IMG/VR virus record: IMGVR_UViG_3300035698_024657
Coordinates: 1-64,000 of that record
From: a virus
DNA: 64,000 nucleotides
Direction: 5' to 3' (one strand)
Shown one piece after another: positions 581-46,800 of this stretch; positions within the stretch are counted from its first letter, which is position 1; each line of letters opens with the position of its first letter. A program made the position numbers and the translations under genes. Below the pieces are notes generated by a model. It had not been told where the DNA came from and ran no database searches. It worked only from the letters and a program-made list of their open reading frames with translations.

Positions 581-771
581 GTAGGACCATCATCAAGATC
601 TGTAAGAACACCCGTTTAGAAGAAGTAGAAAAGAATGTCAATGATTGGCTCGCAAAAATGCATGAAGACTATCAAGGTGTTGAAGTAGTCAGTATGCGCC
701 AAAGTGTGCTTACGTTCAAGAACGAGATTAATTACATCCTCACAATTTGTGTTAAGTATCGCCAGCCATGA
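577..771 (+). CDS. Small protein, possibly Cse60-like
   Basis: This 64-residue protein overlaps both neighbours by four bases. The order is a short beta strand (TIIKIC), a helix containing LEEVEKNVNDWL, then two strands (VEVVSMRQSVLTF and NYILTICVKY). Length and strand-helix-strand-strand order resemble the small Cse60-type family found in Firmicutes and phages, but I recall this only as a general pattern. Function unknown. Confidence 0.55.
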   Translation: MSRTIIKICKNTRLEEVEKNVNDWLAKMHEDYQGVEVVSMRQSVLTFKNEINYILTICVKYRQP

Positions 772-1067
772 TAAATAAAGTAAAGGAAAAGGAAATCCGT
801 ATACAGACGGCATTAGGAAGTCTTGGTGAAGAATACCGTAATCACCTTTGTAGGGGGCAAACGCCCATAACGTCCAAAGGTACAAGAAAATGTATACTTT
901 GCGGATTAAAAAGAATACATAAAGGCGATAAATTTTACCAAGTAAACATGGGCTTATCGGGGTATCTTAAACCTTACATTATCAACATTTGTGAAACATG
1001 TAGTTGGTTACCCCTTCAGACGATTAACGCAATTATAGATAATCATAATAATGGGCTTATAAAATAG
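768..1067 (+). CDS. Zinc-ribbon protein with N-terminal IQxALG motif
   Basis: The protein has 99 residues. Residues 8-17 carry the recurrent motif KEIRIQTALG seen in many proteins of this window. Residues around 40-75 hold two Cys pairs, CILC and CETC, spaced as a small zinc ribbon or treble-clef site. The same arrangement, motif first and then Cys pairs, recurs at 3815 and 21821, so these look like one paralogous family. Start chosen by the ATGA overlap with the upstream gene. Role unknown; adaptor or regulator is an inference. Confidence 0.6.
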   Translation: MINKVKEKEIRIQTALGSLGEEYRNHLCRGQTPITSKGTRKCILCGLKRIHKGDKFYQVNMGLSGYLKPYIINICETCSWLPLQTINAIIDNHNNGLIK

Positions 1068-1077
1068 GATAGACAAG

Positions 1078-2073
1078 ATGCAAGAACTTCCTCCTCTACG
1101 TTCTAGAGATGAATGCGAGAAACAACTAAAAGTGGAACTGGCAGTAGGGGCTATCGACAATATTGATGGCCTAATTACACAGGGCCATGAAACTGCAATT
1201 GAATATGGGTGCCAACTACTCTTAGAAGAGATTAGACTCAAAGTAGCGGCAAGAACAAAATTGAAACCCAACATAGTGCAACACCTATTAAGGGATAGCG
1301 TCCCTAAAATAAGGCTGACTGTAGTAAGTACTAATTGGACAACATTAACACCGGGGCAACAAGAAGTATTCATCGCAGAAACTGCGGAAATATTCAAAGA
1401 AATACCCACACATGTGAAAGACAACGTACACAAAGGGTATTATCGCAGCGGAGAATGTTTCAACGAAGGCATTAGTATGCGTGCATTCGTCATAGAAGAA
1501 GCAATGTACGCCGCAATGGTAGCGCAAGACGAACAAAAAGTTCTAGACTATATTGACATAGTAGGACTAAGTATAGAAAACAATCAAAAGTTTCTACGAG
1601 ACTTAGACGTTTTTGTAAACATGCTCAAAGGTATGCCAAAAGTTTTCCACATGTTCTGGGAGAAAATAGGAAAAACTCGGCGCAACTTTATTCGACTAAT
1701 TTTAGCTCACCCCAATGAAGAGGTACGTCGAAAAGAAATTGAACGTATTTTAGATCCGGCAACACGAAAAGGTGATTTAAGTAACTGGAGAGAGTCAATT
1801 GGGGATGGTGACAGAAGTAGACCCCTCAAAGAAAAAATTCTACATTGCTGGGTAGATGATCCCAGTGTACAAATTAGAAGATACATTGCAGCAAATACGA
1901 CATGTGTTGAGGTACTCCGTAAACTCTCCTGTGATCTATCTACCTCAGTAACTGTGGTGGCCATGCCGAGACTACGAACCTATTCGAAACGAAAGAGCTA
2001 TTCAAAAGGTTACTCACAGATGTACAATGCAAGGAAGAAAGCAAAAAAAGAAGCAGAAGAAAATAATGGGTAA
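1078..2073 (+). CDS. LRV/HEAT-like repeat protein with IQxALG-like motif
   Basis: The protein has 331 residues. Residues 15-24 (KQLKVELAVG) fit the recurrent motif loosely. Segments near 50-90 and 255-300 carry helical repeats of the LRV/HEAT type: pairs such as IRLKVAARTKLKPNIV and VQIRRYIAANTTCVEVL. The last 35 residues are strongly basic (many Lys and Arg, YSKRKSYSKGYS), which suggests nucleic-acid contact. No catalytic motif is visible. It ends the first gene cluster, ahead of a 263-base AT-rich gap. Function unknown. Confidence 0.6.
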   Translation: MQELPPLRSRDECEKQLKVELAVGAIDNIDGLITQGHETAIEYGCQLLLEEIRLKVAARTKLKPNIVQHLLRDSVPKIRLTVVSTNWTTLTPGQQEVFIAETAEIFKEIPTHVKDNVHKGYYRSGECFNEGISMRAFVIEEAMYAAMVAQDEQKVLDYIDIVGLSIENNQKFLRDLDVFVNMLKGMPKVFHMFWEKIGKTRRNFIRLILAHPNEEVRRKEIERILDPATRKGDLSNWRESIGDGDRSRPLKEKILHCWVDDPSVQIRRYIAANTTCVEVLRKLSCDLSTSVTVVAMPRLRTYSKRKSYSKGYSQMYNARKKAKKEAEENNG

Positions 2074-2336
2074 AAATAGCCCGAGGAGCAGTAACCTCTA
2101 TTATATAGGGTAATTATAGAGGCTCTATAACTAATATAGATCCTAATATATTATTATAGATCTTCTGTATATAGTCTTCTGTTCTTAATATAACTGGGAC
2201 TTCGACCATTGGACAATCGAGGTAATTTCCTTGTAACTCGTTGGTAATCAAGAGGACACTAAAAATATTTGACCATTGGACAATTTTTACAAATCTGCTG
2301 AAATCTTGGACACGGTCAAGTACACATTAACATAGG
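2074..2336. other. AT-rich intergenic region with hairpin and repeats
   Basis: I see no credible gene here. The left part is very AT-rich, with an inverted pair CCTCTAT/ATAGAGG. The right part holds a 14-base direct repeat, listed separately. The region separates two gene clusters and is a reasonable place for a terminator and promoter or a binding site, but no clear sigma-70 promoter is visible. Confidence 0.45.
2204..2284. repeat. Direct repeat GACCATTGGACAAT, two copies
   Basis: Exact copies lie at 2204-2217 and 2271-2284, 67 bases apart. A weaker relative (TTGGACAC) follows near 2313. The centre CCATTGG is itself palindromic, as expected for a dimeric regulator site. A similar palindrome occurs at 11030. 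Confidence 0.5.
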
Positions 2337-3814: not shown

Positions 3815-3997
3815 ATGACACAGAAAGAATTTGATATTCAACGGGCTCTTGGAGTAATTTCAATAGAGTATAAATTAGGTTTTTGTGATTCTTGTAAAAC
3901 ATGCCAGCCCTTCAGAAGAATTACGCCAAATAGCCGTTGGTACATTTGTTCTCCATGTCGCCAAATAGGAAGACATACGTATTTGGCACAGCATTAA
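3815..3997 (+). CDS. Short zinc-ribbon protein with IQxALG motif
   Basis: This 60-residue protein begins with the recurrent motif at residues 4-13 (KEFDIQRALG). Cys pairs CDSCKTC and CSPC fit a zinc ribbon. It has the same design as the protein at 768 and the one encoded at 21821. The start lies just after the tmRNA 3' remnant. Function unknown; a small adaptor is possible. Confidence 0.6.
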   Translation: MTQKEFDIQRALGVISIEYKLGFCDSCKTCQPFRRITPNSRWYICSPCRQIGRHTYLAQH

Positions 3998-4507: not shown

Positions 4508-4897
4508 ATGACTTACAAAGAACTATTAGTTCAAAATGCTATAGGTACAACAAATGAATACGTCGTACAAATTCAAATACCCCTTAGAGCTGTCTCGACC
4601 TTATCTATAAAGGTTAATGCTATTTCAGAAGAACATGCGGTAGAACAGGCACAGCATCTCTGTGCAATACAATCACATGACGACATATTAACTCAAGCAG
4701 TTGGGGTCATCTCCGCACCCACTCGTCCGCCTATAATGGAGTTTGATGATGAACGTCAGTGGGAATTTGGGGCGGCTGAATGGTTCCCTTCTAAATCAGT
4801 TTCTGAACAATGTGGTAGTCTAACGGGGCGTATAACCCTTTCTGCGAACCCTTGCGAGGAGGTTCCTCGTCTATATAAACCAACAGGTGATAAATAG
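4508..4897 (+). CDS. Protein with N-terminal IQxALG-like motif
   Basis: The protein has 129 residues. Residues 4-13 (KELLVQNAIG) match the recurrent motif. The following region (YVVQIQIPLRAVSTLSIKVNA, split by turns) looks like beta strands with a helix EEHAVEQAQHLC, an arrangement common in small ferredoxin-like phage proteins. The C-terminal third has no recognisable fold. Its stop overlaps the next gene's GTG start. Confidence 0.5.
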   Translation: MTYKELLVQNAIGTTNEYVVQIQIPLRAVSTLSIKVNAISEEHAVEQAQHLCAIQSHDDILTQAVGVISAPTRPPIMEFDDERQWEFGAAEWFPSKSVSEQCGSLTGRITLSANPCEEVPRLYKPTGDK

Positions 4898-5178
4898 TGT
4901 CTGATATAGATGATCCTGTAGATAGACGAGATAAAGAAATAAGGGTGCACCTTGCTCTGGGTACATTGGATGTCAACAAATTCTCAGGTAAAGATCTGTT
5001 AGCCGTAAAATGTGTTGATACAATGTTAGCTATTAAACCCATATGGATTGAAAAGCGTCGCAATGATTATGTAGGCAAAAAGGGTTGGGAACATATTATG
5101 TTGGGACGGAGTCTCAACTTTTTCGGAATGCCCAGGGCACTGCGTAATGAAGAAATTCTACGTCAAGAAGAGATATAG
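4897..5178 (+). CDS. Protein with IQxALG-type motif
   Basis: This 93-residue protein starts with GTG, overlapping the upstream TAG. Residues 13-22 (KEIRVHLALG) are a good match to the recurrent motif with His in place of Gln. The rest is basic and helical with no known domain. After its TAG stop the same frame continues into a homing-endonuclease remnant. Confidence 0.5.
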   Translation: MSDIDDPVDRRDKEIRVHLALGTLDVNKFSGKDLLAVKCVDTMLAIKPIWIEKRRNDYVGKKGWEHIMLGRSLNFFGMPRALRNEEILRQEEI

Positions 5179-5304
5179 GGTAGAATTGTTTCGGAAGAAA
5201 CGAGGGAAAAATTAAGGGAAGCAAGGAAAGGCTACAAACATTCTGAAAAGACTAAACAAAAAATGAGTAAGTCGCACAAGAATAGGATAAATAATGGCTT
5301 CTAA
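5179..5304 (+). pseudogene. NUMOD3-type remnant of a GIY-YIG endonuclease
   Basis: The frame after the TAG at 5176 encodes SEETREKLREARKG and then HSEKTKQKMSKSHK, two NUMOD3-type DNA-binding repeats. They closely resemble the repeats in the complete GIY-YIG protein at 20600. No start codon or catalytic domain is present, so this is a decayed C-terminal fragment. It runs into the start of the ligase gene. Confidence 0.6.
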
Positions 5305-6205
5305 AATAACTGCGCCAATGTTAGCCGCCGCCCTCAAAGATGTAGCGCAATTAGACTTCTCTAAAGGATATTTAGCAACACAGAAGCTCGATGGTATTCG
5401 TGCATTGCTGCGTAACGGTAAACTTGTATCAAGAACCTTCAAAGACATCCGAAATAATCATATTAGGAAAATACTTGAAGAGGTTCTTCCCGAAGGTGCT
5501 GACGGTGAAATTGTTTGCCCAGGAGCATTTCAAGCAACTTCAAGTGGTGTAATGCGGGCAGACGGTAAACCTGAATTCACATACTATATGTTTGACTACG
5601 TTAAACATTCTTTAGATACTCCATACGTAGAACGTACACAACATATGCTCCAGTGGATGGTGGATAGAGGACCGGTATTAGAGCCAGGATTAGCAGTTAT
5701 TCAAATTCTTCTTCCTACAATCATTAAGGACCGCAAACATCTTGATCGATTTGAATCGACCTGCCTCGATGGCGGATTCGAGGGCGTGATCCTTCGTACA
5801 CCAGACAGTCCATATAAGTGTGGTAGATCTACCGCGAAGCAAGAGTGGTTATTGAAATTGAAAAGATTTTCCGATGATGAAGCAACGATCATTGGCTTTG
5901 CGGAGAAAATGCATAACGATAATGTGGCCACTAAAGATGAGCAAGGACATACTGTTAGGTCCGCACACAAGGAAAATAAACGACCTGCAGGAACGTTAGG
6001 TGCATTGATCGTCAAAGATATCAAAACTAAAATCGAATTTGAAGTAGGTACGGGGTTTTCCGACGCGCAGAGGCAAGAAATTTGGGACGACCAAAGTAAG
6101 TGGACTGGTCTTATAATTACCTATCGGCATTTTGAGATTAGTGGCGTTAAGGATAAGCCGCGCTTCTCCGCGTATAAAGGGATAAGGGATAAGGACGATA
6201 TGTAA
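5294..6205 (+). CDS. ATP-dependent DNA ligase
   Basis: This 303-residue protein has the nucleotidyltransferase motifs of ATP-dependent ligases. Motif I is KLDGIR, with nucleophile Lys31. DGE lies at 70-72, a FDYV motif III region at 100-103, EGVILR (motif IV) at 163-168 and LLKLKR (motif V) at 186-191. The C-terminal 110 residues fit an OB fold. It should seal nicks during phage replication and repair using ATP. Length is typical of compact T7-like ligases. A single-base overlap with the next start indicates coupling. Confidence 0.88.
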   Translation: MASKITAPMLAAALKDVAQLDFSKGYLATQKLDGIRALLRNGKLVSRTFKDIRNNHIRKILEEVLPEGADGEIVCPGAFQATSSGVMRADGKPEFTYYMFDYVKHSLDTPYVERTQHMLQWMVDRGPVLEPGLAVIQILLPTIIKDRKHLDRFESTCLDGGFEGVILRTPDSPYKCGRSTAKQEWLLKLKRFSDDEATIIGFAEKMHNDNVATKDEQGHTVRSAHKENKRPAGTLGALIVKDIKTKIEFEVGTGFSDAQRQEIWDDQSKWTGLIITYRHFEISGVKDKPRFSAYKGIRDKDDM

Positions 6206-7752: not shown

Positions 7753-8127
7753 ATGACGCCACTCCAATACTTGTTGCTCTATCTTAGCCTGAACTTTATA
7801 CTGACAATAATTTGGTTAATTATCCCCTTAAGTGTAAATACAATACGCAAAAACGCTGGCCTTACTCCAAAACTGCGTATTTGGCCGATAGATGACTGTA
7901 TATATCATACGAAAGGCGTGGATACGCTCACAGGCACAGTAGGTGCCTTCTGTGTATCAACTGTAATTGCTACACCATTGTTGATTTCCTGCATAATATA
8001 TCGGGGTCTTCATACGCCCATAAAAAGGGTCTGCAAATATCTTAAAGGTATTATATGGTGGATAGTTACATCAAAAGAGGATAGAGTACAAGTCGCATTA
8101 GGTACAGTACCAGAAGAAGAGGAATAG
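7753..8127 (+). CDS. Inner-membrane protein with C-terminal IQxALG-type motif
   Basis: This 124-residue protein has a membrane segment at 7-28 (a hydrophobic run with LNFILTIIWLIIPL), a second at about 59-80 and an amphipathic helix after it. The cytoplasmic tail ends in KEDRVQVALGTVPEEEE, so the recurrent motif is at the extreme C-terminus here. The next gene is a paralogue with the same layout. It may tether a motif-binding partner to the membrane (inference). Confidence 0.6.
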   Translation: MTPLQYLLLYLSLNFILTIIWLIIPLSVNTIRKNAGLTPKLRIWPIDDCIYHTKGVDTLTGTVGAFCVSTVIATPLLISCIIYRGLHTPIKRVCKYLKGIIWWIVTSKEDRVQVALGTVPEEEE

Positions 8128-8130: not shown

Positions 8131-8496
8131 ATGACCAATCCTATATTTCATGCAGAGCCGTGGATGATAATTACTTACTTCACAATTAACTGTATCATTT
8201 CTATGATATGGCTAGTTATCCCCGTAATAATAAACGCGAAGCGTCAAGAATATGAACTTCCTGCGGCAATGGTGATCTGGCCGATGCGACCCAAATTCTT
8301 TAGGAACTCTTGGCTAGGTTTAGCAATAAGATGTTTTATATCGGGTACGCTCATCGTGCTTCCTGCTATGTTCATATACATTATAGGCCATACTATTTAT
8401 CTTACTATCAATTGGGTAGCTAACTCATTGGCTTTTACTAAAGAAGATAAAGTACAAATCGCTATAGGCACATTACAGAAAAAGGATACGAAATAG
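8131..8496 (+). CDS. Paralogous inner-membrane protein with C-terminal motif
   Basis: This 121-residue protein parallels the upstream gene. It has a first membrane helix around 10-30 (INCIISMIWLVIPV), a central loop with VIWPM matching RIWPI in the paralogue, and a second membrane segment. The tail is KEDKVQIAIGTLQ. Its sequence has diverged strongly outside these points, so the duplication is old or the motif is under selection. Function unknown. Confidence 0.6.
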   Translation: MTNPIFHAEPWMIITYFTINCIISMIWLVIPVIINAKRQEYELPAAMVIWPMRPKFFRNSWLGLAIRCFISGTLIVLPAMFIYIIGHTIYLTINWVANSLAFTKEDKVQIAIGTLQKKDTK

Positions 8497-10132: not shown

Positions 10133-10921
10133 ATGAAGCCAAATAACAAGGGACTAATTTTGTTGGTTGTCCTGGGACTAATGATCTTCGGGGCAATGAG
10201 TTGTTCAGACAAGATGGATACGCCGGTCGGCCCTACCAAGGTCGATAGCACCCTCTATATCGACACAGTGATTAAAATCGAAGTCGACACGGTTTTCCGC
10301 GTAGACACTGTATTCGAGCCAAAGCTTATCTATGATACGACATATGTCATAATCTTCGACACAGTCACTCAAGTAGATACGGTAAAGGTTCCGGAATATA
10401 TTTATATGTACGATACTACGTACATCACTGAATATGATACTACATACGTCCCTGACTATGATACTATATACGCGATTAGGTACGATACCATATACTCTGT
10501 TGAGTACGATACGACATATATTGAATCGCCTCCAGATACTATAACTGAATACGATACGACAATTATATATGTACCCCAATACATAACCGATACGCTATAT
10601 GATACATTACCACCAGATACAGTTCCTGTCTATATTATAGATACAGTCTATCAAGTACATTACGATACTATATGGATAGATACCTGTGGAGATACGACGT
10701 ATATTGAACTTCCACCAGATACTGTGATAGTAACGGATACATTATACTTGCCTGACGGCTGGGTAATAATGTGTTGCATTAGTGGACCGGATAAATGTGA
10801 ATGTCCCGAAGGAGCGGAACCGATAGCAGTGGCACCATGCGATATTGCGGATCGTGAGGCTGAAGGTTGGCGTATTGCGGAACAAGGATCCCCTTGTTTA
10901 GAAGGGTGGTGTATACAATAG
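10133..10921 (+). CDS. Asp-Thr-repeat lipoprotein
   Basis: This 262-residue protein has a lipoprotein signal: a basic start, hydrophobic run, and lipobox GAMSC with acylated Cys24. Residues 35-215 are built of about twenty short DT units (such as VDTVF and YDTTYI), spaced about 8-10 residues apart, suggesting a repetitive beta fibre. The C-terminal 50 residues hold eight Cys (CCISG, CECPEG, CDIAD), likely disulphide-bonded. Such DT repeats are common in surface proteins of Bacteroidota-like bacteria. It shares an operon with the OMP upstream. A terminator follows. Confidence 0.65.
   Translation: MKPNNKGLILLVVLGLMIFGAMSCSDKMDTPVGPTKVDSTLYIDTVIKIEVDTVFRVDTVFEPKLIYDTTYVIIFDTVTQVDTVKVPEYIYMYDTTYITEYDTTYVPDYDTIYAIRYDTIYSVEYDTTYIESPPDTITEYDTTIIYVPQYITDTLYDTLPPDTVPVYIIDTVYQVHYDTIWIDTCGDTTYIELPPDTVIVTDTLYLPDGWVIMCCISGPDKCECPEGAEPIAVAPCDIADREAEGWRIAEQGSPCLEGWCIQ
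10326..10745 (+). repeat. Degenerate tandem repeat (DT-coding)
   Basis: Units like TACGATACGACATAT recur at intervals of about 24-30 bases. The repeats vary in third positions but keep the Asp-Thr codons, so selection is on the protein. Such repeats may expand or contract by recombination. Confidence 0.55.
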
Positions 10922-11423: not shown

Positions 11424-11651
11424 ATGGGAACAAATGACAGTACACAGTTAACAGAAGCGCTACGCCACCTTAAACATGCATTAGCATGCGTTCATATATT
11501 CGAAGTGATTGATGGAAAAACTGGTGAAGGTTGCCCAGATTGCGAAGAGGCAACACACTTTTTAGAACAGTATGAAATAGTTAAGACGGAGGAAGAAGAA
11601 GAGGATGAAGAGGACAACTCTTCACATTGGTGGATCGCGTTTGGGGGGTAA
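11424..11651 (+). CDS. Small acidic Cys/His protein
   Basis: This 75-residue protein has a helix with LRHLKHALACVHIF, then CPDC and a following H, which could bind one metal ion. A run of Glu and Asp (about 55-65) precedes a Trp-rich end (SSHWWIAFGG). Its 3' end carries a GGGGGG that also serves as ribosome binding site for the PorV-like gene. Function unknown. Confidence 0.5.
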   Translation: MGTNDSTQLTEALRHLKHALACVHIFEVIDGKTGEGCPDCEEATHFLEQYEIVKTEEEEEDEEDNSSHWWIAFGG

Positions 11652-11656
11652 TCTAC

Positions 11657-12571
11657 GTGCAAAGGGGATGGAACAACGCCTTAATAGTTATAGTCTGTAT
11701 ACTTCTGCCTGCTTGTGTGTTCTCAAATTCTGGAGGACAAACAGCGGCAGATTTTTTACGTATTGGACTAAGTGCTCGCGCAGCCGGAATAGGAGATGCG
11801 AGCACAGCCTTCAGCAAAGGGGTAGAAGCAGCCTATTGGAATCCAGCAGGCTTAGTACTCCTAACGCCACGAGTGGAAATTTTATCGAGTCACTTTTTAT
11901 GGTATCAAGATATCAACGTAGATCACTGTGCGATCGCATACAGGTTACATCGGGGGATCGTTGTGGCCGCTTCGATTGTGTACGTCAATTATGGGGATAT
12001 CGATGGGTATGATATATCAGGTAATGCAACTGGAGAAAAACTCGACGCGTATGATCTTAGCGGAGCGTTCTCTACTGGAATACAATTATGGAAAGGATTT
12101 ACAGCCGGCGCAACCGTCAAGGTAATCAATCAACGCCTAATACACCTAAGCGCAAGAACAATCGCATTCGATTTTGGTTTACGTATGCAGCTTGGTACTA
12201 TAATATTAGGTGGCGCAGTTGTCAATCTTGGACCAGATATTGTTATTGGACATTACGCGGAAAAATTGCCCCTATCCTTCCGAGTAGGGACTTCTTTCAC
12301 TTTTTATAATGATGAACTATATACAGTATTCGATATTGATTTTCCAAAATATGGAATAATCTCTTTCCACACTGGTATAGAATATTGTATGCAAAAACGA
12401 TATTATCTTCGCACAGGCATAAAAATGCATATAAATACATTTCGACCTCAACCATCACTGGGTGCAGGTGTGAAATTTAACAATGTAACAATTAACTACG
12501 CATATGTTCCGGGAAATGGATTTATTCATGATCCACTGCATAAATTTTCGTTGACCTTGGGTATTATGTAA
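11657..12571 (+). CDS. PorV/PorQ-family outer-membrane beta-barrel
   Basis: The 304-residue product begins at GTG 11657, eight bases after GGGGGG; an ATG at 11627 in frame would bury the signal peptide. The signal peptide is followed by the family signature: DFLRIGLSARAAGIGDAS, then VEAAYWNPAGL. This is the conserved start of PorV/PorQ (UPF0164-like) barrels. The remainder alternates strands and ends with SLTLGIM. In Bacteroidota PorV carries type IX secretion cargo, and related barrels occur elsewhere. Finding it in a phage is unusual; it may reshape the host surface, alter secretion, or act in exclusion. Confidence 0.75.
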   Translation: MQRGWNNALIVIVCILLPACVFSNSGGQTAADFLRIGLSARAAGIGDASTAFSKGVEAAYWNPAGLVLLTPRVEILSSHFLWYQDINVDHCAIAYRLHRGIVVAASIVYVNYGDIDGYDISGNATGEKLDAYDLSGAFSTGIQLWKGFTAGATVKVINQRLIHLSARTIAFDFGLRMQLGTIILGGAVVNLGPDIVIGHYAEKLPLSFRVGTSFTFYNDELYTVFDIDFPKYGIISFHTGIEYCMQKRYYLRTGIKMHINTFRPQPSLGAGVKFNNVTINYAYVPGNGFIHDPLHKFSLTLGIM

Positions 12572-13164: not shown

Positions 13165-13344
13165 ATGGATGATCTAAATAAACGGATTGAATACGCCAGA
13201 GAGCATATAGAGGATATAATGAAGGATCCTGCATGGCTAAAAAATCTAGAAGAATCCGATAAACGTCTTAAAGAGGATATCGAAAGGCGGAAACGTGAAA
13301 GTATAGTCTCATGGGAAGATCTAAATGAACCTACAACGATTTAA
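13165..13344 (+). CDS. Small charged helical protein
   Basis: This 59-residue ORF follows the structured segment. It is almost entirely charged helix (KRIEYAREHIEDIMKD, then LEESDKRLKEDIERRKR). No family recognised. The next ORF begins nine bases after its stop, and the four following small ORFs are tightly packed, which supports real translation. Confidence 0.5.
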   Translation: MDDLNKRIEYAREHIEDIMKDPAWLKNLEESDKRLKEDIERRKRESIVSWEDLNEPTTI

Positions 13345-13353
13345 GGAATAGTT

Positions 13354-13503
13354 ATGAATACGTTTTCGCTCGCAATAGCAATTGCGTTTATCGCAGGTAT
13401 GTTGCTCGGTGGGACATACGTATACAGAAAAACCATGGCGCGGATGAATCAGCTTTTCGAATCAGTGATGGAAGACCAGTTCCACAGTAAGGAAGAAAGA
13501 TAA
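13354..13503 (+). CDS. Single-span membrane microprotein
   Basis: The 49-residue product has an N-terminal membrane helix at 4-25 (AIAIAFIAGMLLGG) with a short cytoplasmic basic and acidic tail. It has the glycine-zipper look of small phage membrane proteins. The stop overlaps the next start by one base (TAATG). It could be a holin-like or regulatory peptide. Confidence 0.45.
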   Translation: MNTFSLAIAIAFIAGMLLGGTYVYRKTMARMNQLFESVMEDQFHSKEER

Positions 13504-13634
13504 TGAGTATGCAAGAGACGCGAGAAAAGATTGAAGCAATTTTGAAATCAATACATGAGAGGGAAATAGGCCATCCCCTCAACTATGAGAGTGAAGCAAT
13601 CCATATCATAACGCTTGTTCGTACGCATGGATAA
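13503..13634 (+). CDS. Hypothetical microprotein
   Basis: This 43-residue ORF is coupled to the upstream ORF by TAATG. It is helical and amphipathic (TREKIEAILKSIHEREIG), ending in ITLVRTHG. No motif known. It overlaps the next ORF by eight bases. Confidence 0.4.
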   Translation: MSMQETREKIEAILKSIHEREIGHPLNYESEAIHIITLVRTHG

Positions 13635-13752
13635 AGTTATGCGAAGAGTAATGTCGTTCCCTTTCGGGAAGGACAAAGATACGGCAAACAGTATTGCATG
13701 GGTAATTATCCTCATTGTGATTTTATCGTGGATGAAAGGGAAAGTATTATGA
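13627..13752 (+). CDS. Single-span membrane microprotein
   Basis: This 41-residue ORF has a basic N-terminus (DKVMRRVM) and a membrane helix at about 22-36 (NSIAWVIILIVILSW). The stop overlaps the next ATG (ATGA). It may be a phage membrane peptide; no specific family. Confidence 0.4.
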   Translation: MDKVMRRVMSFPFGKDKDTANSIAWVIILIVILSWMKGKVL

Positions 13753-14003
13753 CTATTGAAGAAGCCATTGCCCTAATGGACGAAACAGATGAGGGTTGGG
13801 CCAAAAAGGGTGAGTTACTTGCACCATTGGAAATCTTTAAGAAATACAAACCAGATTTTTGTCTCAAAGATTTGGAACCGGCACACGATGAGATTTACTT
13901 TCCAACGTTTGACGAAAAGATGACGAAAGACGATATTCTGTTTTTACATCGATGCGGCTTTCATCTGGATGAGTCATACGAATGCTGGGTGATGTTTACA
14001 TAA
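13749..14003 (+). CDS. Hypothetical protein
   Basis: This 84-residue product starts at ATG 13749 by ATGA overlap; a longer frame from 13698 would lie inside the upstream ORF. It is acidic and has several aromatics (YFPTFDEKM, FLHRCGFHLDESYECW). No family recognised. It couples to the next gene by TAATG. Confidence 0.5.
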   Translation: MTIEEAIALMDETDEGWAKKGELLAPLEIFKKYKPDFCLKDLEPAHDEIYFPTFDEKMTKDDILFLHRCGFHLDESYECWVMFT

Positions 14004-14260
14004 TGGCAAAAACTATCGCTCCACAATATAGAGTATATGATGAGCATATAACGCTCAAAGAATTCAAAATACAATATGCATTAGGGGCATTGCATTGGCA
14101 CAAACGCTACCATATGGCAGGCGACTCCACCACGCCTATAGAAATACTGGCTATTTTAGCTAAAGATCCGAACGACCTTGTACGCCGCAGAGCTAGGCAC
14201 AGTCCCTGTTGGAAGGGGCACAATTTCAGTTGGAGGAGGTCTCGGTTAAATGACGGTTAA
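14003..14260 (+). CDS. IQxALG motif plus LRV repeat protein
   Basis: The product has 85 residues. Residues 19-28 (KEFKIQYALG) are the recurrent motif. One LRV-type repeat follows: TPIEILAILAKDPNDLVRRRARHSP. The start is set by TAATG overlap with the previous stop. The protein ends with a Trp/Arg-rich tail. It is directly followed by a close relative at 14250, so this is a tandem duplication. Confidence 0.6.
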   Translation: MAKTIAPQYRVYDEHITLKEFKIQYALGALHWHKRYHMAGDSTTPIEILAILAKDPNDLVRRRARHSPCWKGHNFSWRRSRLNDG

Positions 14261-14477
14261 GGAATTCGAAATACAGTATGCATTAGGGTCGATAGACTGG
14301 CTGCATATGTATAACCTTGCAAGAAGTCAACGTACTCATCCAATTATATTGAGTACATTACGAGATAATCCAGATTATCTCGTCAGTCGAAGAGCAAAAC
14401 TTAACCCACGTACAAATAAGAATACAGTAAGGTATATTAAACGTAGCAACGCTACAGAAAGGAACCATGGATCTTAA
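14250..14477 (+). CDS. IQxALG motif plus LRV repeat protein
   Basis: The 75-residue product starts MTVKEFEIQYALG, a canonical example of the recurrent motif. One repeat follows (HPIILSTLRDNPDYLVSRRA), then NPRTNK, the opening of another unit. It overlaps its paralogue upstream by 11 bases. Related proteins lie at 14003 and 19822. The repeat could be a binding surface and the motif a docking tag; both are inference. Confidence 0.65.
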   Translation: MTVKEFEIQYALGSIDWLHMYNLARSQRTHPIILSTLRDNPDYLVSRRAKLNPRTNKNTVRYIKRSNATERNHGS

Positions 14478-14495
14478 AACACAATTAGGAACAAA

Positions 14496-16583
14496 ATGAA
14501 CGGCAACGAATCAACCTCAGAAATTTTGATGAATGCTCGGTACCTTATGAAAGGTGAAAATTGGACAGATTTAACTAAACGCGTAAGTACTGCAATCGCG
14601 GTGGCCGAGAAGACTCCAGAGCTACAAAAGGAGTGGGCCAAAAAGTTTGCTGATATTATACAGAAGAAAGAGTTCGTACCTGCCTCCCCGTTTATGATGA
14701 ACGCAGGGAAAAAAGAAGAAGGTATGAACAACCACCTTTTCTCTTGTTATGTTTTACCAGTAGAAGACTCTCTCGAACAAATTTACAAAACAATTGCCGA
14801 TGCTGCGAAAATATTTCAAGTAGCCGGTGGGGTAGGGTACGACTTTTCAACACTTCGACCCAAAGGATGTTCTACGTCTACATCTGGTGGAACAAGTTCA
14901 GGGCCCATGTCCTTTATGCGGGTATTCAACGCATCTTGTAATGAATTGAAAGCAGGGGGTCGACGTAAGGGCGCACAGATGGGTGTGTTCCGAATAGATC
15001 ATCCCGACATTGAAGAATTTATCAACGTCAAACAAGATTTAACACAATTAACTAACTTCAATCTCTCAATAGCTATTACCGATGCGTTTATGCTGGCAGT
15101 ACGTAATGATGAGATGATCATGCTGCAATTTGCGAGTCATCCTGAGAAAGATCATGAGGTTAGTGCAAAGTCTCTTTGGGATCAGATCGTAAAAGGGGCA
15201 TGGAGATGTGGCGAGCCGGGCGTCTTGTTTATCGACAGAATAAACGATAAAGATCCCATTGGAGGCATTTTTGCGACTAACCCCTGTGGAGAGATTCCTC
15301 TCCCTCCTTATGGTTGCTGTAATTTAGGCTCGATTAATCTGGCGCAGATGATCCGTAGGGGAAAATTCAATTGGGACCGCTACAAAGAGATTATTCATAT
15401 TGCTATTCGTTTCCTCGACAATGCAATTGACGTAAATACCTACACGTTGCCTGAAATTAAAGAGCAACAATTAAACCAACGTCGCGTAGGTTTAGGTGTT
15501 ATGGGCTTGGCTGACTTATTCGTCAAGTTAAGTATTGCTTACGACTCCAAAGAAGCGCGTGAAATGAGTGAGGAATTAGCGAGGATACTGCACGAAACCT
15601 CAAAAGCCGCGTCAGAAGACTTATCTAAAGAGAAAGGCGCGTTTCCTGCGCAGAATAGCAGTAAATTGAAGGATTCTTTACCTATTCGTAATGCTACACG
15701 TACCGCGATCGCACCAACTGGATCAATTAGCATTGTTGCAGAATGTTCTTCGGGAATTGAACCTATTTACGCGATAACTCTCGAAAGGCGCCACGATTTA
15801 GCAGACCATGATGTAATCGTCGAAATCAATCCACTATTCCTTGAAATTGCAAAGAAGCAGCAGTTCTATTCAGAAGCCCTTATTGCAGGAATCCGCGAAA
15901 ATAACGGATCTTGCCAAGGCGTAGAAGGTGTACCAGAGGATGTTCAGAATATCTTCAAGATTGCTGCAGATATTAAACCAAAAGATCATGTAGAGCAATT
16001 GGCGGTTTGGCAAGGAAATATTGATAGTGCAGTTAGTAAGACTATCAATTTAGCCTCTTCTGCTACGGAAGAAGATATTGAGCACATCTTCTCAATGGCC
16101 TACGATCTTGGATGCAAAGGTATTACCGTGTACCGTGATGGATGTAGAGGTGCACAAGTTCTTGCTTCTGGAATACAGAAACTGGAGCGACCTGATGTAG
16201 TGCCAGGTAAGACCATCCGTGTTCCTACCAGTTTAGGTACAATGTATATTACCGTCGGTGTTATAGAGGGTCGGCCATTTGAAGTCTTCGTTAGTCTACG
16301 AACCGGAGGAACAAATGCGGGTGCTGATGCAGAGGGTCTGGCACGAATGGTCTCTCTTGCACTGCGAACGAAAGTAAGCGTCTATGACATCGTTAAACAA
16401 CTTAAGGGAATTGGATCAGGTGCAGCTGTCTTCCATAAAGGAAGGGTAATCACGTCTATCCCTGATGCTATAGCTTATGCGCTGGAGAAATATTTCCTGG
16501 ACTCAAAAGTCGCACATCCAGATGATCATGCACAATTTGCGAGCGGCTCCGAAGGCATGTATTGTAAAGATTGCGACGATTAA
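14496..16583 (+). CDS. nrdJ: Adenosylcobalamin-dependent ribonucleotide reductase (class II)
   Basis: This 695-residue protein reduces ribonucleotides to deoxyribonucleotides for phage DNA synthesis. Signature parts are SCYVLP with Cys84, the finger-loop motif NPCGE at 262-266 with the thiyl-radical Cys264, GCCNLGSINLA just after, and PTGSIS in the barrel. The C-terminal region 570-670 matches the TSCPD-like extension of NrdJ enzymes, and the tail ends in CKDC, the expected redox pair. There is no small R2 subunit nearby, consistent with class II. The enzyme needs B12, which must come from the host or environment. Confidence 0.9.
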   Translation: MNGNESTSEILMNARYLMKGENWTDLTKRVSTAIAVAEKTPELQKEWAKKFADIIQKKEFVPASPFMMNAGKKEEGMNNHLFSCYVLPVEDSLEQIYKTIADAAKIFQVAGGVGYDFSTLRPKGCSTSTSGGTSSGPMSFMRVFNASCNELKAGGRRKGAQMGVFRIDHPDIEEFINVKQDLTQLTNFNLSIAITDAFMLAVRNDEMIMLQFASHPEKDHEVSAKSLWDQIVKGAWRCGEPGVLFIDRINDKDPIGGIFATNPCGEIPLPPYGCCNLGSINLAQMIRRGKFNWDRYKEIIHIAIRFLDNAIDVNTYTLPEIKEQQLNQRRVGLGVMGLADLFVKLSIAYDSKEAREMSEELARILHETSKAASEDLSKEKGAFPAQNSSKLKDSLPIRNATRTAIAPTGSISIVAECSSGIEPIYAITLERRHDLADHDVIVEINPLFLEIAKKQQFYSEALIAGIRENNGSCQGVEGVPEDVQNIFKIAADIKPKDHVEQLAVWQGNIDSAVSKTINLASSATEEDIEHIFSMAYDLGCKGITVYRDGCRGAQVLASGIQKLERPDVVPGKTIRVPTSLGTMYITVGVIEGRPFEVFVSLRTGGTNAGADAEGLARMVSLALRTKVSVYDIVKQLKGIGSGAAVFHKGRVITSIPDAIAYALEKYFLDSKVAHPDDHAQFASGSEGMYCKDCDD

Positions 16584-16600
16584 TAATTTGGAGATAAATA

Positions 16601-16942: not shown

Positions 16943-16943
16943 T

Positions 16944-17207: not shown

Positions 17208-17293
17208 TTCGAAAAGAACTATATTAGTAGTCAAGCAGGATAAGTAATATTGTTAGACGTAATAAACGAAAACATTACAACAAATGAAATAGG

Positions 17294-17326
17294 GCCTGAG
17301 GGAACGTACTCAGGCTTTCCTGCTTT
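17294..17326 (+). terminator. Rho-independent terminator
   Basis: GCCTGAG (17294-17300) pairs with CTCAGGC (17309-17315), followed by TTTCCTGCTTTT. It lies 86 bases after the gene at 16944 and ends the reductase transcript. Confidence 0.7.
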
Positions 17327-17341
17327 TATCTCAAATTCCCC

Positions 17342-17370
17342 GCACACTTCTCCTATCTTACAGGTATAAT
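17342..17370 (+). promoter_or_regulatory. Candidate promoter -10 element
   Basis: TATAAT at 17365-17370 lies 29 bases before the kinase gene, with an AAGGAG site between. The -35 region is poor. Its location after a terminator supports a new transcript start; a phage sigma factor may not need a -35. Confidence 0.4.
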
Positions 17371-19825: not shown

Positions 19826-20055
19826 CTACTAAAGAATTTGAAATACAATATGCTCTCGGAATACTGTCTGAAGACCAAAAATTTAAAATGGCCAAGAACG
19901 TACAGACTTCAAGACGTGTCTTATCTATTCTTGCTAATGATATTAACCTGGCCATCAGGATCAGGATACACGATAACCCCAATACTCCCTGGACTACGGT
20001 AAATATGATATGGAATCGAGACAGGATGCAGATAATGCAATCAGGATTAGTATGA
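19822..20055 (+). CDS. IQxALG motif plus LRV repeat protein
   Basis: This 77-residue protein starts MTTKEFEIQYALG, nearly identical to the start of the protein at 14250. The LRV-type repeat SRRVLSILANDINLAIRIRIHDNPNTP follows in two parts, with the NPNTP turn. It is the third member of the tandem family, at a separate site. It overlaps the exonuclease upstream and the RNase H downstream. Confidence 0.65.
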   Translation: MTTKEFEIQYALGILSEDQKFKMAKNVQTSRRVLSILANDINLAIRIRIHDNPNTPWTTVNMIWNRDRMQIMQSGLV

Positions 20056-20603: not shown

Positions 20604-21286
20604 GTCACTTCTATGTTTATATGTATTTAGACCAGAATAATGTTCCTTTTTATATTGGAAAAGGTAATGGTAATCGATACAAAGTGCAATCTCATTTACG
20701 CGAAGACCAGGCATTTCTAAAGAATAAGATCAATAAAGTAGGTAATTCTAATGTTAAGATCCACTTCCTCCATAAAGATATTTCTGAAGAAGAAGCTTTT
20801 CGTTGGGAGAGATACTGGATTAAGTACATTGGACGTAGAGATCTAAAAGAAGGTACTCTCTGTAACTTGACCGATGGTGGAGAAGGACAATCGGGTTTTA
20901 TTCATTCTGAAGAATCTAAACAAAAGATGCGTAAAGCTCATAAAGGTGAAAAGAATTCTATGTATGGTAAATCCCATACAGAAGTAGCGAAGCAAAAAAT
21001 GTGCACCATACACAAAGGTAAAACTCATTCTGATGAAACCCGCGAAAAGATGAGTAAATCCCAAAAAGGGCGAAAACATCCAGAAGGGACTAAACAGAAA
21101 ATGAGTAAAACTAAAAAAGGTAAAACTCATTCTGTTGAAACTAAACGAAAAATCAGCGATGCTACGAAAGGTAAGCGAATAGGTAAAAAGAACCCTATGT
21201 ATGGTAAACGACATACTCCAGAAACTCGGCAGAAAATGCGCAATGCTAAAGAAAAGAAGAAAAATGGGAAAAATGGAGCTGCGTGA
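20600..21286 (+). CDS. GIY-YIG homing endonuclease with NUMOD3 repeats
   Basis: The 228-residue product has the N-terminal catalytic domain with YVYMYLD, FYIGKGNG (the GIY/YIG strands) and a helix containing the catalytic Glu (EEAFRWERYWIKYIG). A linker and five or six NUMOD3 repeats of the type (H)SxETxxKMSKxxKGxxH follow, for DNA contact. It lies free between genes rather than in an intron, and overlaps both neighbours. A decayed relative lies at 5179. Confidence 0.85.
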   Translation: MSHFYVYMYLDQNNVPFYIGKGNGNRYKVQSHLREDQAFLKNKINKVGNSNVKIHFLHKDISEEEAFRWERYWIKYIGRRDLKEGTLCNLTDGGEGQSGFIHSEESKQKMRKAHKGEKNSMYGKSHTEVAKQKMCTIHKGKTHSDETREKMSKSQKGRKHPEGTKQKMSKTKKGKTHSVETKRKISDATKGKRIGKKNPMYGKRHTPETRQKMRNAKEKKKNGKNGAA

Positions 21287-21602
21287 AATTGAAGTACAGC
21301 GGGCTTTGGGCCTAACCGAATTTTACTGGATTACATTATGGACAGGTATGGGGAAACGGGAAGAACATCTAAATTTGGATCAATTATTTCATGAAGTTTT
21401 TCCGGTAGCCGCGCGTTACGTAAATGGGCAATATACCTGTTTTTCTGTAGAATCCTCGCCTAAAGAGTTGAAAGTATTTACATCTCGTCTCCATAATGAA
21501 TTACATTCATTATATAAGCAATTACATATCAAGATATATAAAGGGGTCTCGGATAAGGGTGACCTTGTTTGCCATAAATGGATAGGATATAACGCATCAT
21601 GA
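21273..21602 (+). CDS. IQxALG motif protein
   Basis: The start at ATG 21273 gives MELREIEVQRALG, matching the position of the motif in its relatives (residues 4-13). The upstream in-frame region lies inside the endonuclease gene. The remaining 95 residues form an unknown alpha/beta domain with aromatic residues (FYWITLWTGMG) and a helix LHNELHSLYKQL. It ends by ATGA overlap with the next gene. Confidence 0.55.
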   Translation: MELREIEVQRALGLTEFYWITLWTGMGKREEHLNLDQLFHEVFPVAARYVNGQYTCFSVESSPKELKVFTSRLHNELHSLYKQLHIKIYKGVSDKGDLVCHKWIGYNAS

Positions 21603-21844
21603 AAGTACGCGGAGATGATCATCCAGGAATTTTGACTCTTGCCGAGATACAGGCACAATTAGCCGTAGGTTCCCTAGTTAAACGCGATTTGCATCGCATG
21701 GTACATGATTATGAGTGTTCTCGCTTCTATTTACCTGAAAACGTCGTAGCCTTCCTTGAAGGTTATTTCGGTAGAACTATTCGTAATAAGAATAAGTTTT
21801 ATTTTCGCGAAAAAGAGGAATCATCCGTAAAAGAACGGGATTAA
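21599..21844 (+). CDS. IQxALG-like motif protein at convergent junction
   Basis: This 81-residue protein has the variant motif AEIQAQLAVG at 15-24. The rest is basic and helical (VKRDLHRMVHDYECS, VVAFLEGYFG). It is the last rightward gene. Its final 24 bases overlap the end of the leftward gene at 21821, so the two transcripts collide with no terminator between them. Confidence 0.5.
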   Translation: MKVRGDDHPGILTLAEIQAQLAVGSLVKRDLHRMVHDYECSRFYLPENVVAFLEGYFGRTIRNKNKFYFREKEESSVKERD

Positions 21845-22099
21845 TTGACTTGAATTGCATTCTGGACAATGTTGAGATTCCTCTGTTACTATCGTATAGC
21901 TTACGATATGCGTCCAGTATCTTCCGCCCCTCTGCAACTTTGTAGGCTTCTGTACTGTTTTGAGCCCACCTAATGGTGTCACTAATCTACATTCTTCACA
22001 TAATACACATTTAATTGTGCCTAATGCGAGTTGGATTCTTATTTCTTTTTCTGTTAGTTTACCTTCTTCAGAAATCGAAGATTTTGTATTGGTAGTAAT
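21821..22099 (-). CDS. Zinc-ribbon protein with IQxALG motif; unusual start
   Basis: The leftward frame contains EKEIRIQLALGTI followed by CVLCEEC and CPEC, exactly the motif-plus-zinc-ribbon design of the proteins at 768 and 3815. No ATG, GTG or TTG is in frame before the motif. The ATT at 22099-22097 lies seven bases after GGAGG, so an ATT start is possible; otherwise the gene is 5'-damaged. It would have 92 residues. Its 3' end overlaps the rightward gene at 21599, and the start lies inside the end of the next leftward gene. Confidence 0.5.
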   Translation of the reverse strand: MTTNTKSSISEEGKLTEKEIRIQLALGTIKCVLCEECRLVTPLGGLKTVQKPTKLQRGGRYWTHIVSYTIVTEESQHCPECNSSQLIPFFYG

Positions 22100-44532: not shown

Positions 44533-45099
44533 TTACGCCAATTTTAATATTTCAGTAAAGATTAAGTCGACGATCTCATCAATAGAACATTCAGGTGAAG
44601 TTTCTAAATCAAAAAAGCCCGTACCCTCTATATCGTCAAATCCTGTTTCAGAAGGATGGTCTAAATTAACAGTACCTTTATTGCCCTCGGTATCTCGAGA
44701 TAATTGTAACTCTCGGGTAGTCACAAGACGCACTGTTTTGAAACCGTGCTCACGTAAACGTTCAACCTCTCCTGAAAATCTGCAATCATCACAAATATAA
44801 AAATCATACTCACCTTCATCTTGCAAATCTTTCAAATCAGCCAGCATAAGGTTAACCCAAAAATCTTCCGTACCGAAATACTTACCTGCAAATTTTCGCA
44901 TTATTTCAGTGCCCATATATTGCATCGCAGGACGATCATGGCGATCATAGCCCCGAGCAAGAAGAACTTTTAGCCAATGTGCAAGACTGAGGCGTTTTGC
45001 ATAGTGTTTACGTGCCGCCATTCTTGCGATTATTTCACGAGTAACATATGTTTTACCCGAGCGCATTTTCCCGGAAATTAAAAGGTTAGGTATGGCCAT
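44533..45099 (-). CDS. Deoxynucleoside monophosphate kinase
   Basis: The 188-residue product has GKMRSGKT (Walker A, 10-17), FYICDDCRFSGEVERLREHG and HPSETGFDDI. These match T4 gp1-type dNMP kinases that phosphorylate dNMPs, including modified ones. It supports dNTP supply together with RNR and dUTPase, and the adjoining NDT-like protein. Confidence 0.75.
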   Translation of the reverse strand: MAIPNLLISGKMRSGKTYVTREIIARMAARKHYAKRLSLAHWLKVLLARGYDRHDRPAMQYMGTEIMRKFAGKYFGTEDFWVNLMLADLKDLQDEGEYDFYICDDCRFSGEVERLREHGFKTVRLVTTRELQLSRDTEGNKGTVNLDHPSETGFDDIEGTGFFDLETSPECSIDEIVDLIFTEILKLA

Positions 45100-45211: not shown

Positions 45212-45214
45212 ATA

Positions 45215-45850
45215 TCACCTAATATACGATACACCTTTTTTCTGGTGCACTTCAATTGTATTAGTTGCAAATTCCATCAATTTTTCATTATGCGTAATAA
45301 GAATTATTTGACGATCAAATTGTTTCGATACTTCAGTCAAAAATTTTCCAAATGCCCCAACATGTTGTGCAGATACATTTTTTCCGGGTTCATCTAAAAT
45401 TAACGGACCTTTGAGGTTCATCAATTGCATAATGATTATACGTAACGAAATACTAATCACGTCTGCAATACCACCACCATACGTAATTAAAATCTCACCT
45501 CGAATTGGGTTTGTATCTACTCGAGATAAATCAAATTCAGCTTCAACCTGGTTTCTTTTGGTGATGAAATTAATATTGAATTGAATAGTAGGATCATCAA
45601 AAATATCGCGTAAACCTTGAGTCACCAAAAGTTCAACTTTCGCTTTAATGCGGTCACGGGAAACTATATTACATTGTTCCAATAACCGTAGAGATGCTTC
45701 AAGGGAAGTGTTCTCCTTTTTCGCAGCATCACATTTGGCGAGAGCCGTAACAAGTGAGTGCTGCGCGGCAGATTTTTCACCATCAAATTTAGCTAATGCC
45801 ACCTTCGTGGTAGTAAGTTTATCTAATAACGTATCTAATTGGTGTGACAT
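45215..45850 (-). CDS. Rad50/SbcC-like ATPase, C-terminal half
   Basis: The 211-residue product begins with a coiled coil, then a lobe with TYGGGIADVISISLRI (the ABC signature region) and PLILDEPGKNVS (Walker B with catalytic Glu), then ILITHNEKL (switch His). There is no Walker A. It should pair with the Walker A half at 47996. Four genes lie between the halves. The start follows the 45852 coiled-coil gene by one base. Confidence 0.75.
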   Translation of the reverse strand: MSHQLDTLLDKLTTTKVALAKFDGEKSAAQHSLVTALAKCDAAKKENTSLEASLRLLEQCNIVSRDRIKAKVELLVTQGLRDIFDDPTIQFNINFITKRNQVEAEFDLSRVDTNPIRGEILITYGGGIADVISISLRIIIMQLMNLKGPLILDEPGKNVSAQHVGAFGKFLTEVSKQFDRQIILITHNEKLMEFATNTIEVHQKKGVSYIR

Positions 45851-45851
45851 A

Positions 45852-46091
45852 CTATAGGTCTACTGTAGAAAGTTGTACTTCAACCTCTTCAAACTTTTTT
45901 GCAATATCTTGCTGCAACGTTACAATACTATCTTTAATAGTTTGAACAGATTCACCCTGTTCTTCCATTTCTGCAATAATTTCAGCTCGACGTTGCTGTA
46001 AACTTTCTAATTGCGTAGTGGCCCGAATTTTCTCATTCCTATGTTTAATTACCTGTGCCTCTAACGCAGCCAATTCTGCTTCACTGTGCAT
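45852..46091 (-). CDS. Coiled-coil protein of the split Rad50 group
   Basis: The 79-residue product is nearly all heptad coiled coil (ELAALEAQVIKHRNEKI, QRRAEIIAEMEEQGES and on). It lies directly upstream of the Rad50 C-half and overlaps the primase gene. It may be a piece of the Rad50 arm or an independent bridging protein. Confidence 0.55.
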   Translation of the reverse strand: MHSEAELAALEAQVIKHRNEKIRATTQLESLQQRRAEIIAEMEEQGESVQTIKDSIVTLQQDIAKKFEEVEVQLSTVDL

Positions 46092-46800
46092 TACTACTCC
46101 TTAACAATTCGAGAAACGCATTTTTACCGTATTTAAGCATAAAACTAGCAGGATCTTCACCATCAGGAAGATTGACTGCAACTACATGTATTTTATTATC
46201 TAAATATACCTCATCAAGATACTTTTGCGCCTTTAACTGTGCTTTCTTTCCCGCATCATCTGCATCAAACACAATATATACCTTTTGTGCATAGCGCGCT
46301 AACGTTCTTGCCGCCGCAGGTTTAAACGCAACACCAGAAGAAGCGACTGTGCTAAGTAACCCATATTGATGCAAAATAAGTGCATCCATTTGACCTTCAA
46401 CCAATATTGCAGTACCTGTTTTAATGATCGCAGGCTTTGCTAAATGGTACAAATAAAGAAGTCTGCCTTTTTGAAATTTTGCAGATTCCTTTACATTAAT
46501 GTATTTCGCAGGCGCATTTATTAATGTACGCCCAGTCCAGCCTACAGGATGCCCAAAAGATGAATGAATTGGAAATATTAATCGATCATGGAAGCGTTTA
46601 CCTATTTTAGGTTGAGAAGGTGCATACCCTAATTGGTGTTTAATCACAGATTCTTTAGATACACCACGTGACTTTAAATACGCCTTCACCTCAGGTGCAG
46701 CCTTTAATTCTGCGTGATAATATTCAATTGCCATCTGAATTTTATCTATACCTAAAGCAAGTTGAATTTCTTTCTCTCTTCGTGTAAGATCATTCAACAT
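46081..46800 (-). CDS. dnaG: DnaG-type primase (no zinc domain), with IQxALG motif
   Basis: The 239-residue product contains the N-terminal part of the DnaG RNA polymerase domain (YLKSRGVS, IFPIHSSFG, GWTGRTL, AKYINVKES, KGRLLY) and the TOPRIM domain (LVEGQMDALILHQYGL, then VYIVFDADDAGKKA with Asp pairs). The zinc-binding domain and helicase-interaction domain are absent. Residues 8-17 (REKEIQLALG) carry the recurrent motif. It lays primers for replication. It overlaps the Mre11 gene. Confidence 0.85.
   Translation of the reverse strand: MLNDLTRREKEIQLALGIDKIQMAIEYYHAELKAAPEVKAYLKSRGVSKESVIKHQLGYAPSQPKIGKRFHDRLIFPIHSSFGHPVGWTGRTLINAPAKYINVKESAKFQKGRLLYLYHLAKPAIIKTGTAILVEGQMDALILHQYGLLSTVASSGVAFKPAAARTLARYAQKVYIVFDADDAGKKAQLKAQKYLDEVYLDNKIHVVAVNLPDGEDPASFMLKYGKNAFLELLRSSNAQ

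Follow-up and report, generated by a model that had tools for sequence, protein, structure and literature searches.

Why do roughly a dozen apparently unrelated proteins encoded in one 64,000-nucleotide stretch of phage DNA (the window; the first 64,000 positions of IMG/VR record IMGVR_UViG_3300035698_024657) carry the same short peptide? A preliminary description noted a recurrent motif in about 14 of them and proposed a shared tag that docks to a common hub, confers localization, or acts as a phage-specific protein-sorting signal. First, we asked whether the motif is real. The observation holds, and the motif is more extensive than described: the window carries 12 strict copies, all in frame in the ORFs originally named, plus one variant. 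Two further proposed members fared differently. The variant at 1120 scored 8.8 bits, below the cut-off of 15, whereas the weak form in the gene at 22742 (ERIAVHLALLTK) scored 3.9 bits and was rejected. The sites are as follows:

789..824 (+), tag KEIRIQTALGSL, residue 8 of ORF 768-1067 (Cys-rich, zinc-ribbon-like).
1120..1155 (+), possible degenerate tag KQLKVELAVGAI near the N-terminus of protein 1078-2073, below threshold.
3824..3859 (+), tag KEFDIQRALGVI, residue 4 of ORF 3815-3997 (Cys-rich).
4517..4552 (+), tag KELLVQNAIGTT, residue 4 of ORF 4508-4897.
4933..4968 (+), tag KEIRVHLALGTL, residue 13 of ORF 4897-5178 (GTG start).
8074..8109 (+), C-terminal tag KEDRVQVALGTV of the hydrophobic, apparently membrane protein 7753-8127, followed by 5 residues; the best-conserved stretch shared with paralog 8131-8496.
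8440..8475 (+), C-terminal tag KEDKVQIAIGTL of the hydrophobic, apparently membrane protein 8131-8496, followed by 6 residues.
14057..14092 (+), tag KEFKIQYALGAL, residue 26 of ORF 13982-14260 (LRV-like).
14259..14294 (+), tag KEFEIQYALGSI, residue 4 of ORF 14250-14477 (LRV-like), predicted as helix 3-12, the first helix of an alpha-solenoid.
19831..19866 (+), tag KEFEIQYALGIL, residue 4 of ORF 19822-20055 (LRV-like).
21282..21317 (+), tag REIEVQRALGLT in ORF 21201-21602 (Met three residues before the Arg).
21641..21676 (+), variant tag AEIQAQLAVGSL in ORF 21599-21844, supported by the iterated profile at 19.5 bits.
22013..22048 (-), tag KEIRIQLALGTI in a Cys-rich reading frame open from about 22117 downwards, with no in-frame ATG, GTG or TTG start (an ATT start or a frameshift is possible).
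46744..46779 (-), tag REKEIQLALGID, residue 8 of the DnaG-like primase 46081-46800.

Next, we assessed whether such a set could arise by chance and how far it extends. In the first profile scan, scores dropped from 25.8 bits at the 12th site to 12.5 bits at the next. A DNA-level pattern matched 16 times in the contig and 0 times when reversed, and within-protein shuffles gave 0.003 tagged proteins per proteome against 17 observed in contig G000. The preliminary description had missed the remainder of the contig (the whole contig, of 130 kb, carries 19 sites in all), as well as four related IMG/VR contigs carrying 25, 12, 5 and 2 more. In total, 63 sites scored at or above 15 bits in five contigs, with none in the reversed-sequence control. 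An independent profile HMM identified 18, 22, 12, 5 and 2 sites in the tagged contigs and 0 in six relatives. The tag is specific to one phage group and is absent from a 168-kb relative sharing 72 genes, and searches returned 0 sites in the untagged genomes G010, G012 and G013, Bacillus phage G, LR745208, Tunturi_5, Rctr197k and PaBG. Searches with three other codon versions of the pattern and a scan of 85,000 prokaryote genomes yielded only isolated matches apart from the contigs already identified, and no other IMG/VR contig showed an array. A tblastn search of a tagged LRV protein against 50,697 phage records returned no hit, and a scan with the protein encoded at 27246-29522 revealed no relatives.

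We then examined the architecture of the 63 copies. The element is a discrete module of 14-15 residues with the consensus Phi-[TSDN]-x-K-E-x-x-[VI]-Q-x-A-L-G-[TS]-Phi, in which the two positions after the Glu can also be written Phi-K. The Glu is invariant (63/63), followed by Ala (61/63), Gly (60/63) and Gln (59/63), and information falls to about zero outside positions -2 to 13. Its signals are those of a short helix capped at both ends: a hydrophobic staple with an aliphatic residue or Met at position -2, an S/T-x-x-E capping box with an N-cap residue of T, S, D or N in 54/63 copies, and a Gly as helix stop. A predicted structure of one LRV protein likewise gave a helix at residues 3-12 with block-mean pLDDT above 90, although a model of a C-terminal tag was poor (pLDDT 54). 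A search of the fold of the LRV protein against the PDB gave no significant match. Of the 63 copies, 50 were classed as N-terminal (usually Met-Thr-x-Lys-Glu), 7 as C-terminal, and 6 as internal or near the C-terminus.

To determine whether the tagged proteins are simply one duplicated family, we masked the tag and clustered the remainder, obtaining 43 families; this is a sequence-level count, and distant homology among the LRV-like members would lower it. C-terminal tags were the best-conserved stretch of otherwise diverged pairs. An ortholog of the tagged primase in G003, 78% identical, lacks the N-terminal extension carrying the tag, so the tag is an add-on. Codons at most conserved residues follow genome usage, indicating that selection acts on the protein. 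Thus, neither of the outcomes that had been set beforehand as refuting the observation was found, as the motif is strongly enriched and does not derive from a single duplicated family. Tagged genes form tandem arrays of variable small genes, whereas the virion and glycosyltransferase regions carry none; no tag lies in the 75-130 kb part of the contig, which holds the head and tail genes.

The proposed interpretation is therefore partly supported: a shared short tag on varied partners is borne out, docking to a common hub is the best-fitting reading but is inferred, and a phage-specific sorting signal remains possible. With moderate confidence, we favor a modular docking or targeting helix. What the sequences establish is the module itself, with its helix-start and helix-stop signals, attached to many unrelated proteins in one phage group, usually right after the start codon, sometimes as the last residues and sometimes between domains. 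That the face bearing E2, V5, Q6, A8 and L9 binds one conserved partner, either a phage hub or a host protein, and thereby recruits a diversified set of mostly small accessory proteins (zinc ribbons, LRV solenoids, membrane proteins, a primase) to one place is our inference, and the sequences show neither the partner nor the purpose of recruitment. A search for a phage-encoded hub, based on presence in tagged and absence in untagged relatives, yielded several lineage-specific genes, none with an informative domain. Moreover, in the LRV model the tag helix is confidently placed as the first solenoid helix; there it may be buried in its own protein and not free to dock.

A bolder version of this idea, which we raise only tentatively, is that a bacteriophage lineage evolved its own intracellular address code, in which one 15-residue, doubly capped helix, movable between the N-terminus, C-terminus and inside of proteins, brings roughly 15% of the phage's gene products, in over 40 families across the lineage, to a single dedicated hub. 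Phages of this size encode large numbers of small proteins of unknown function. A tag grouping some 44 of them in one genome would allow their function to be asked as a group, since identifying the one partner would place the whole set. If it is a targeting code, it would be, to our knowledge, the widest-used linear targeting signal in a phage and a ready-made tool for directing proteins. The tag also marks genes that can be followed as they gain and lose it.

Among the alternatives, the one that survives best, though unlikely, is that the tag originated as the N-terminal capping helix of LRV/HEAT-like solenoid proteins and spread by recombination at gene starts. In this view, it would cap the solenoid in cis in LRV proteins and, in other proteins, be either a passenger or bind the end of an LRV solenoid in trans. 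About a third of tagged proteins look LRV-like by eye, Pfam LRV (PF01816) is significant in one, the predicted model places the tag as the first solenoid helix, and the only PDB sequence hits are a HEAT-like helix of AlkD (SSKEFFIQKAIG, E 0.8, not significant). However, that is 1 of 20 tagged proteins searched, the tag precedes the repeats, and most tagged proteins show no LRV match. The C-terminal and internal copies, the zinc-ribbon and apparently membrane proteins, and an insertion ahead of a primase are not explained by duplicating one family; NADAR is also among the tagged proteins. Furthermore, a passive passenger would not stay this conserved when third codon positions vary.

Two further readings are less likely but not excluded. 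The tag could be a degron, a terminal helix read by a host or phage protease or adaptor so that early accessory proteins are short-lived. Its placement at either terminus, its predominance on small non-structural proteins and its absence from virion proteins are consistent with this idea, but six copies are internal or 18-114 residues from the end, and the specific E-V-Q-A-L-G pattern with double helix capping is not known from ClpX or Lon signals. Alternatively, it could be a capsid-targeting sequence (CTS) of the phage T4 type, loading small effector proteins into the prohead for injection. The 10-residue N-terminal CTS of T4 is shared by internal proteins (IPI-III) whose mature parts diverge, and is modular and exchangeable (PMC9026906); the phage studied here is a large myovirus with a head maturation protease domain, and its tag is likewise a short peptide on divergent proteins. 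Nevertheless, the CTS is N-terminal and cleaved, whereas 7 C-terminal and 6 internal copies were found here, including on hydrophobic, apparently membrane proteins, and a primase is also tagged; no common processing site was seen beside the tag, and no sequence resemblance to the CTS was noted. Chance, a repeated DNA or RNA element, or a reading-frame artifact is refuted by the reversed controls and shuffles, by third positions that agree at only 24-35% for I/V, A, L and G, close to codon usage, despite a mild bias in the codons for Lys-1 (AAA) and Leu-9 (TTA); no shared element or promoter was seen upstream of tagged genes.

Finally, we compared the tag with other targeting systems; nobody appears to have described this one. 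Bacterial microcompartment encapsulation peptides (PduP, PduD, PduL) are also 15-20 residue amphipathic helices at the N- or C-terminus of unrelated cargo, and a conserved Glu and aliphatic residues matter in PduP (PMC11157265). The consensus and one structure prediction fit such a helix, and 57 of 63 copies were classed as terminal, but the motif is far more uniform in sequence (about 26 bits over 12 positions); no shell domain was recognized among the proteins searched against Pfam and PHROGs, which did not cover every gene. Chimalliviridae phages are similarly large phages that must send many of their own proteins to one place, but import into their nucleus through the PicA pathway uses a recognition surface and no conserved signal sequence (PMC11087766), and the head protein of the phage studied here is of the Bacillus phage G type. 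A weak hit to phrog_9053 was discarded because it also appeared in unrelated control genomes. We also looked for a different tag in the untagged relatives: nothing comparable was seen in G010, and the repeated C-terminal peptide of G012 and G013 (LNKIKIEGKAYVK) lies in a set of proteins that also share their N-terminal parts, so they look like paralogs.

We first examined whether the recurrent peptide holds as a discrete element. All 12 strict copies named in the preliminary description were present in frame, and a profile built from them separated them from everything else in the window by a wide gap (25.8 against 12.5 bits). Of the less regular copies proposed there, the variant at 21641 survived iteration of the profile, whereas the variant at 1120 did not reach the threshold and the weak form in the 22742 gene was rejected. 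Thus, the observation held for the strict copies and for one of the variants. The tagged Cys-rich frame at 22048 (window 21859-22117, minus strand) has no ATG, GTG or TTG start; an ATT codon follows a good Shine-Dalgarno-like AAGGAGGG, or the frame may be reached by frameshift from gene 22068-22682. The window is the first half of a 130,254-base IMG/VR record (hereafter G000), the rest of which holds six more copies on the minus strand, at 67638, 67978, 71064, 71256, 71477 and 74984.

Next, we asked whether the same tag occurs in other phages by searching IMG/VR with a DNA pattern for the peptide. The search returned many single matches that read as chance, whereas two contigs held five or more copies (G001, 3300035698_012567, 59 kb; G002, 3300005253_000102, 54 kb) and one held two (G003, 3300035698_023018, 67 kb). 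The single match in a fourth contig (G004, 3300035698_013511, 31 kb) also proved real when that contig was read. With the iterated profile, the counts were 19 in G000, 25 in G001, 12 in G002, 5 in G003 and 2 in G004, giving 63 sites at or above 15 bits, with none in the same DNA read backwards. An independent 19-column HMM yielded 18, 22, 12, 5 and 2 sites, respectively. Strict matches in predicted proteins numbered 17, 11 and 7 in G000, G001 and G002, against 0 to 0.003 in within-protein shuffles. A fifth relative, found through the portal-like gene, has a tagged LRV-like protein (L187).

These are large contractile-tail phages, with a major head protein 37% identical to that of Bacillus phage G. 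The tag was missing from phage G, LR745208, Tunturi_5, Rctr197k and PaBG. It was also missing from G010, a 168-kb contig with a 73%-identical head protein that shares 72 genes with G000, and from the contigs G012, G013 and G008. The contigs G005 to G007, with 83-94% identical head proteins, showed none, although these are fragments that may not cover regions where tags would be expected. In G012 (13214-28020) and G013, repeated proteins share a C-terminal peptide, LNKIKIEGKAYVK, but they also share N-terminal parts and look like paralogs. Searches of IMG/VR with other codon versions of the pattern and a scan of about 85,000 prokaryote genomes gave only isolated matches. These results indicate that the tag array belongs to one lineage.

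We then analyzed the anatomy of the element across the 63 sites. Column information rises at position -2 and is about zero beyond position 13. Position -2 is Met, Leu, Ile or Val in 53 of 63 sites and position -1 is T, S, D or N in 54 of 63, followed by an invariant Glu at position 2, V/I (54), Gln (59), Ala (61), Leu (55), Gly (60), Thr/Ser (43) and a hydrophobic residue. By established helix-capping rules, S/T-x-x-E is an N-capping box, the hydrophobic pair at -2 and 3 is a hydrophobic staple, and the Gly is a helix C-cap; the element therefore looks like a self-contained three-turn helix. At 100 degrees per residue, the most conserved helical positions (E2 at 200, V5 at 140, Q6 at 240, A8 at 80 and L9 at 180) share one side, while positions 4 and 7 vary. 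For one LRV-like protein (14250-14477), the predicted structure has a helix at residues 3-12 with block-mean pLDDT above 90, ending at the Gly. A model of a C-terminally tagged protein, albeit poor overall, also shows a helix at the tag, at residues 60-68.

To assess modularity, we classified the position of each copy and clustered the proteins with the tag masked. Of the 63 copies, 50 were classed as N-terminal, most often with the start Met three residues before the Lys; 7 are C-terminal with 0-8 residues following; and 6 are internal or near the C-terminus, although the classes were assigned by simple length rules and a few are ambiguous. The masked proteins formed 43 clusters, the largest of five. 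Recognised partners are a DnaG-like primase, an LRV protein and a NADAR-LRV fusion, the last being an ORF of G002 (5096-5893, minus strand) in which a NADAR domain is fused to the tag and an LRV-like tail; zinc ribbons and membrane proteins were assigned by our own reading of the sequences. The primase is instructive, as its 78%-identical ortholog in G003 starts directly at the domain, whereas the G000 gene has an extra in-frame segment carrying the tag. In the paralogous membrane-like proteins 7753 and 8131, and in three related Cys-rich proteins, the C-terminal tag is the best-conserved stretch. Codons at the conserved residues largely follow genome usage, with a mild bias at Lys and Leu, and third positions agree in only 24-35% of pairs for I/V, A, L and G. 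What is preserved is therefore the peptide. Across G000 to G004, tagged genes less often have a Shine-Dalgarno-like site than untagged small genes in the same regions (18 of 63 against 55 of 116, Fisher p = 0.017).

Analysis of genomic placement in G000 showed that 12 tags fall among 48 genes in 1-22 kb, 6 among 14 genes in 67-75 kb, one (the primase) in the replication block, and none among 54 genes in 75-130 kb, which hold glycosyltransferase-like, head and tail genes. G000 and G001 overlap by exactly 127 identical bases at their left ends (window 1-127), the size of a k=127 assembly overlap, and gene order in G002 puts their right ends close together, suggesting that they are probably two pieces of one genome of about 190 kb. 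On that reading, one phage carries about 44 tagged proteins among about 299 predicted ORFs.

A peptide that is kept almost letter for letter on unrelated proteins, at either end or between domains, and that is gained or lost as a unit, is best explained as a docking or targeting helix read by one partner, a reading that we hold with moderate confidence. The module, its placement, its conservation and its lineage limits follow directly from the sequences, whereas binding in trans, the existence of a single partner and recruitment as the purpose are inferences. The interpretation offered in the preliminary description is in this sense partly supported: a shared short tag on varied partners is supported, whereas docking to a common hub is inferred and a phage-specific sorting signal is possible. 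No hub was found; the lineage-specific genes have no informative domains, and a host partner is equally possible. In LRV-like proteins, the helix may instead cap the solenoid in cis, which is a real weakness of the docking reading and gives the strongest, though still doubtful, alternative. A degron and a T4-like capsid-targeting signal are both less likely, because of the internal copies, the membrane-like proteins and the primase, although neither is excluded.

The closest parallels are the capsid targeting sequence (CTS) of T4 (PMC9026906) and microcompartment encapsulation peptides, which are amphipathic helices at either end of unrelated cargo and in PduP also depend on a Glu and aliphatic residues (PMC11157265). 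The tag works like these in outline, but we do not count it as a member of either: the N-terminal-only rule of CTS does not hold here, and no shell gene was seen among the proteins searched against Pfam and PHROGs. Nucleus-forming phages use a recognition surface with no conserved signal sequence (PMC11087766). Tagged proteins searched in Pfam and PHROGs had no hit covering the tag that we consider meaningful, the PDB search gave no significant hit, and our literature searches, which left out most subscription papers, returned no description of such a motif.

The contigs also carry the following features outside the tag itself.
Window 20600-21286 (plus strand), and G000 76388-76966 and 121564-122289: homologous proteins that look like GIY-YIG homing endonucleases, recurring in all five tagged contigs at different sites, including between tail/head genes.
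Window 57401-59074 (minus strand), G001 44773-45066 and G002 13813-14115: apparent phage-encoded GroEL-like (557 aa) and GroES-like proteins; no homolog of the GroEL-like protein was found in the untagged relative G010, but G012 and G013 have one.
Window 62839-63372 and 44533-45099 (minus strand): 6-pyruvoyl tetrahydropterin synthase family (QueD-like) and deoxynucleotide monophosphate kinase genes, hinting at modified DNA bases.
Window 10133-10921 (plus strand) and 11627-12571 (plus strand): a lipoprotein-like protein rich in YDTTY repeats and a PorV/UPF0164-like outer-membrane protein, hinting, by eye only, at a host of the Bacteroidota/FCB kind.
G000 72047-90894 (minus strand): a long run of nucleotide-sugar, epimerase and glycosyltransferase-like genes in a phage, shared with G003.
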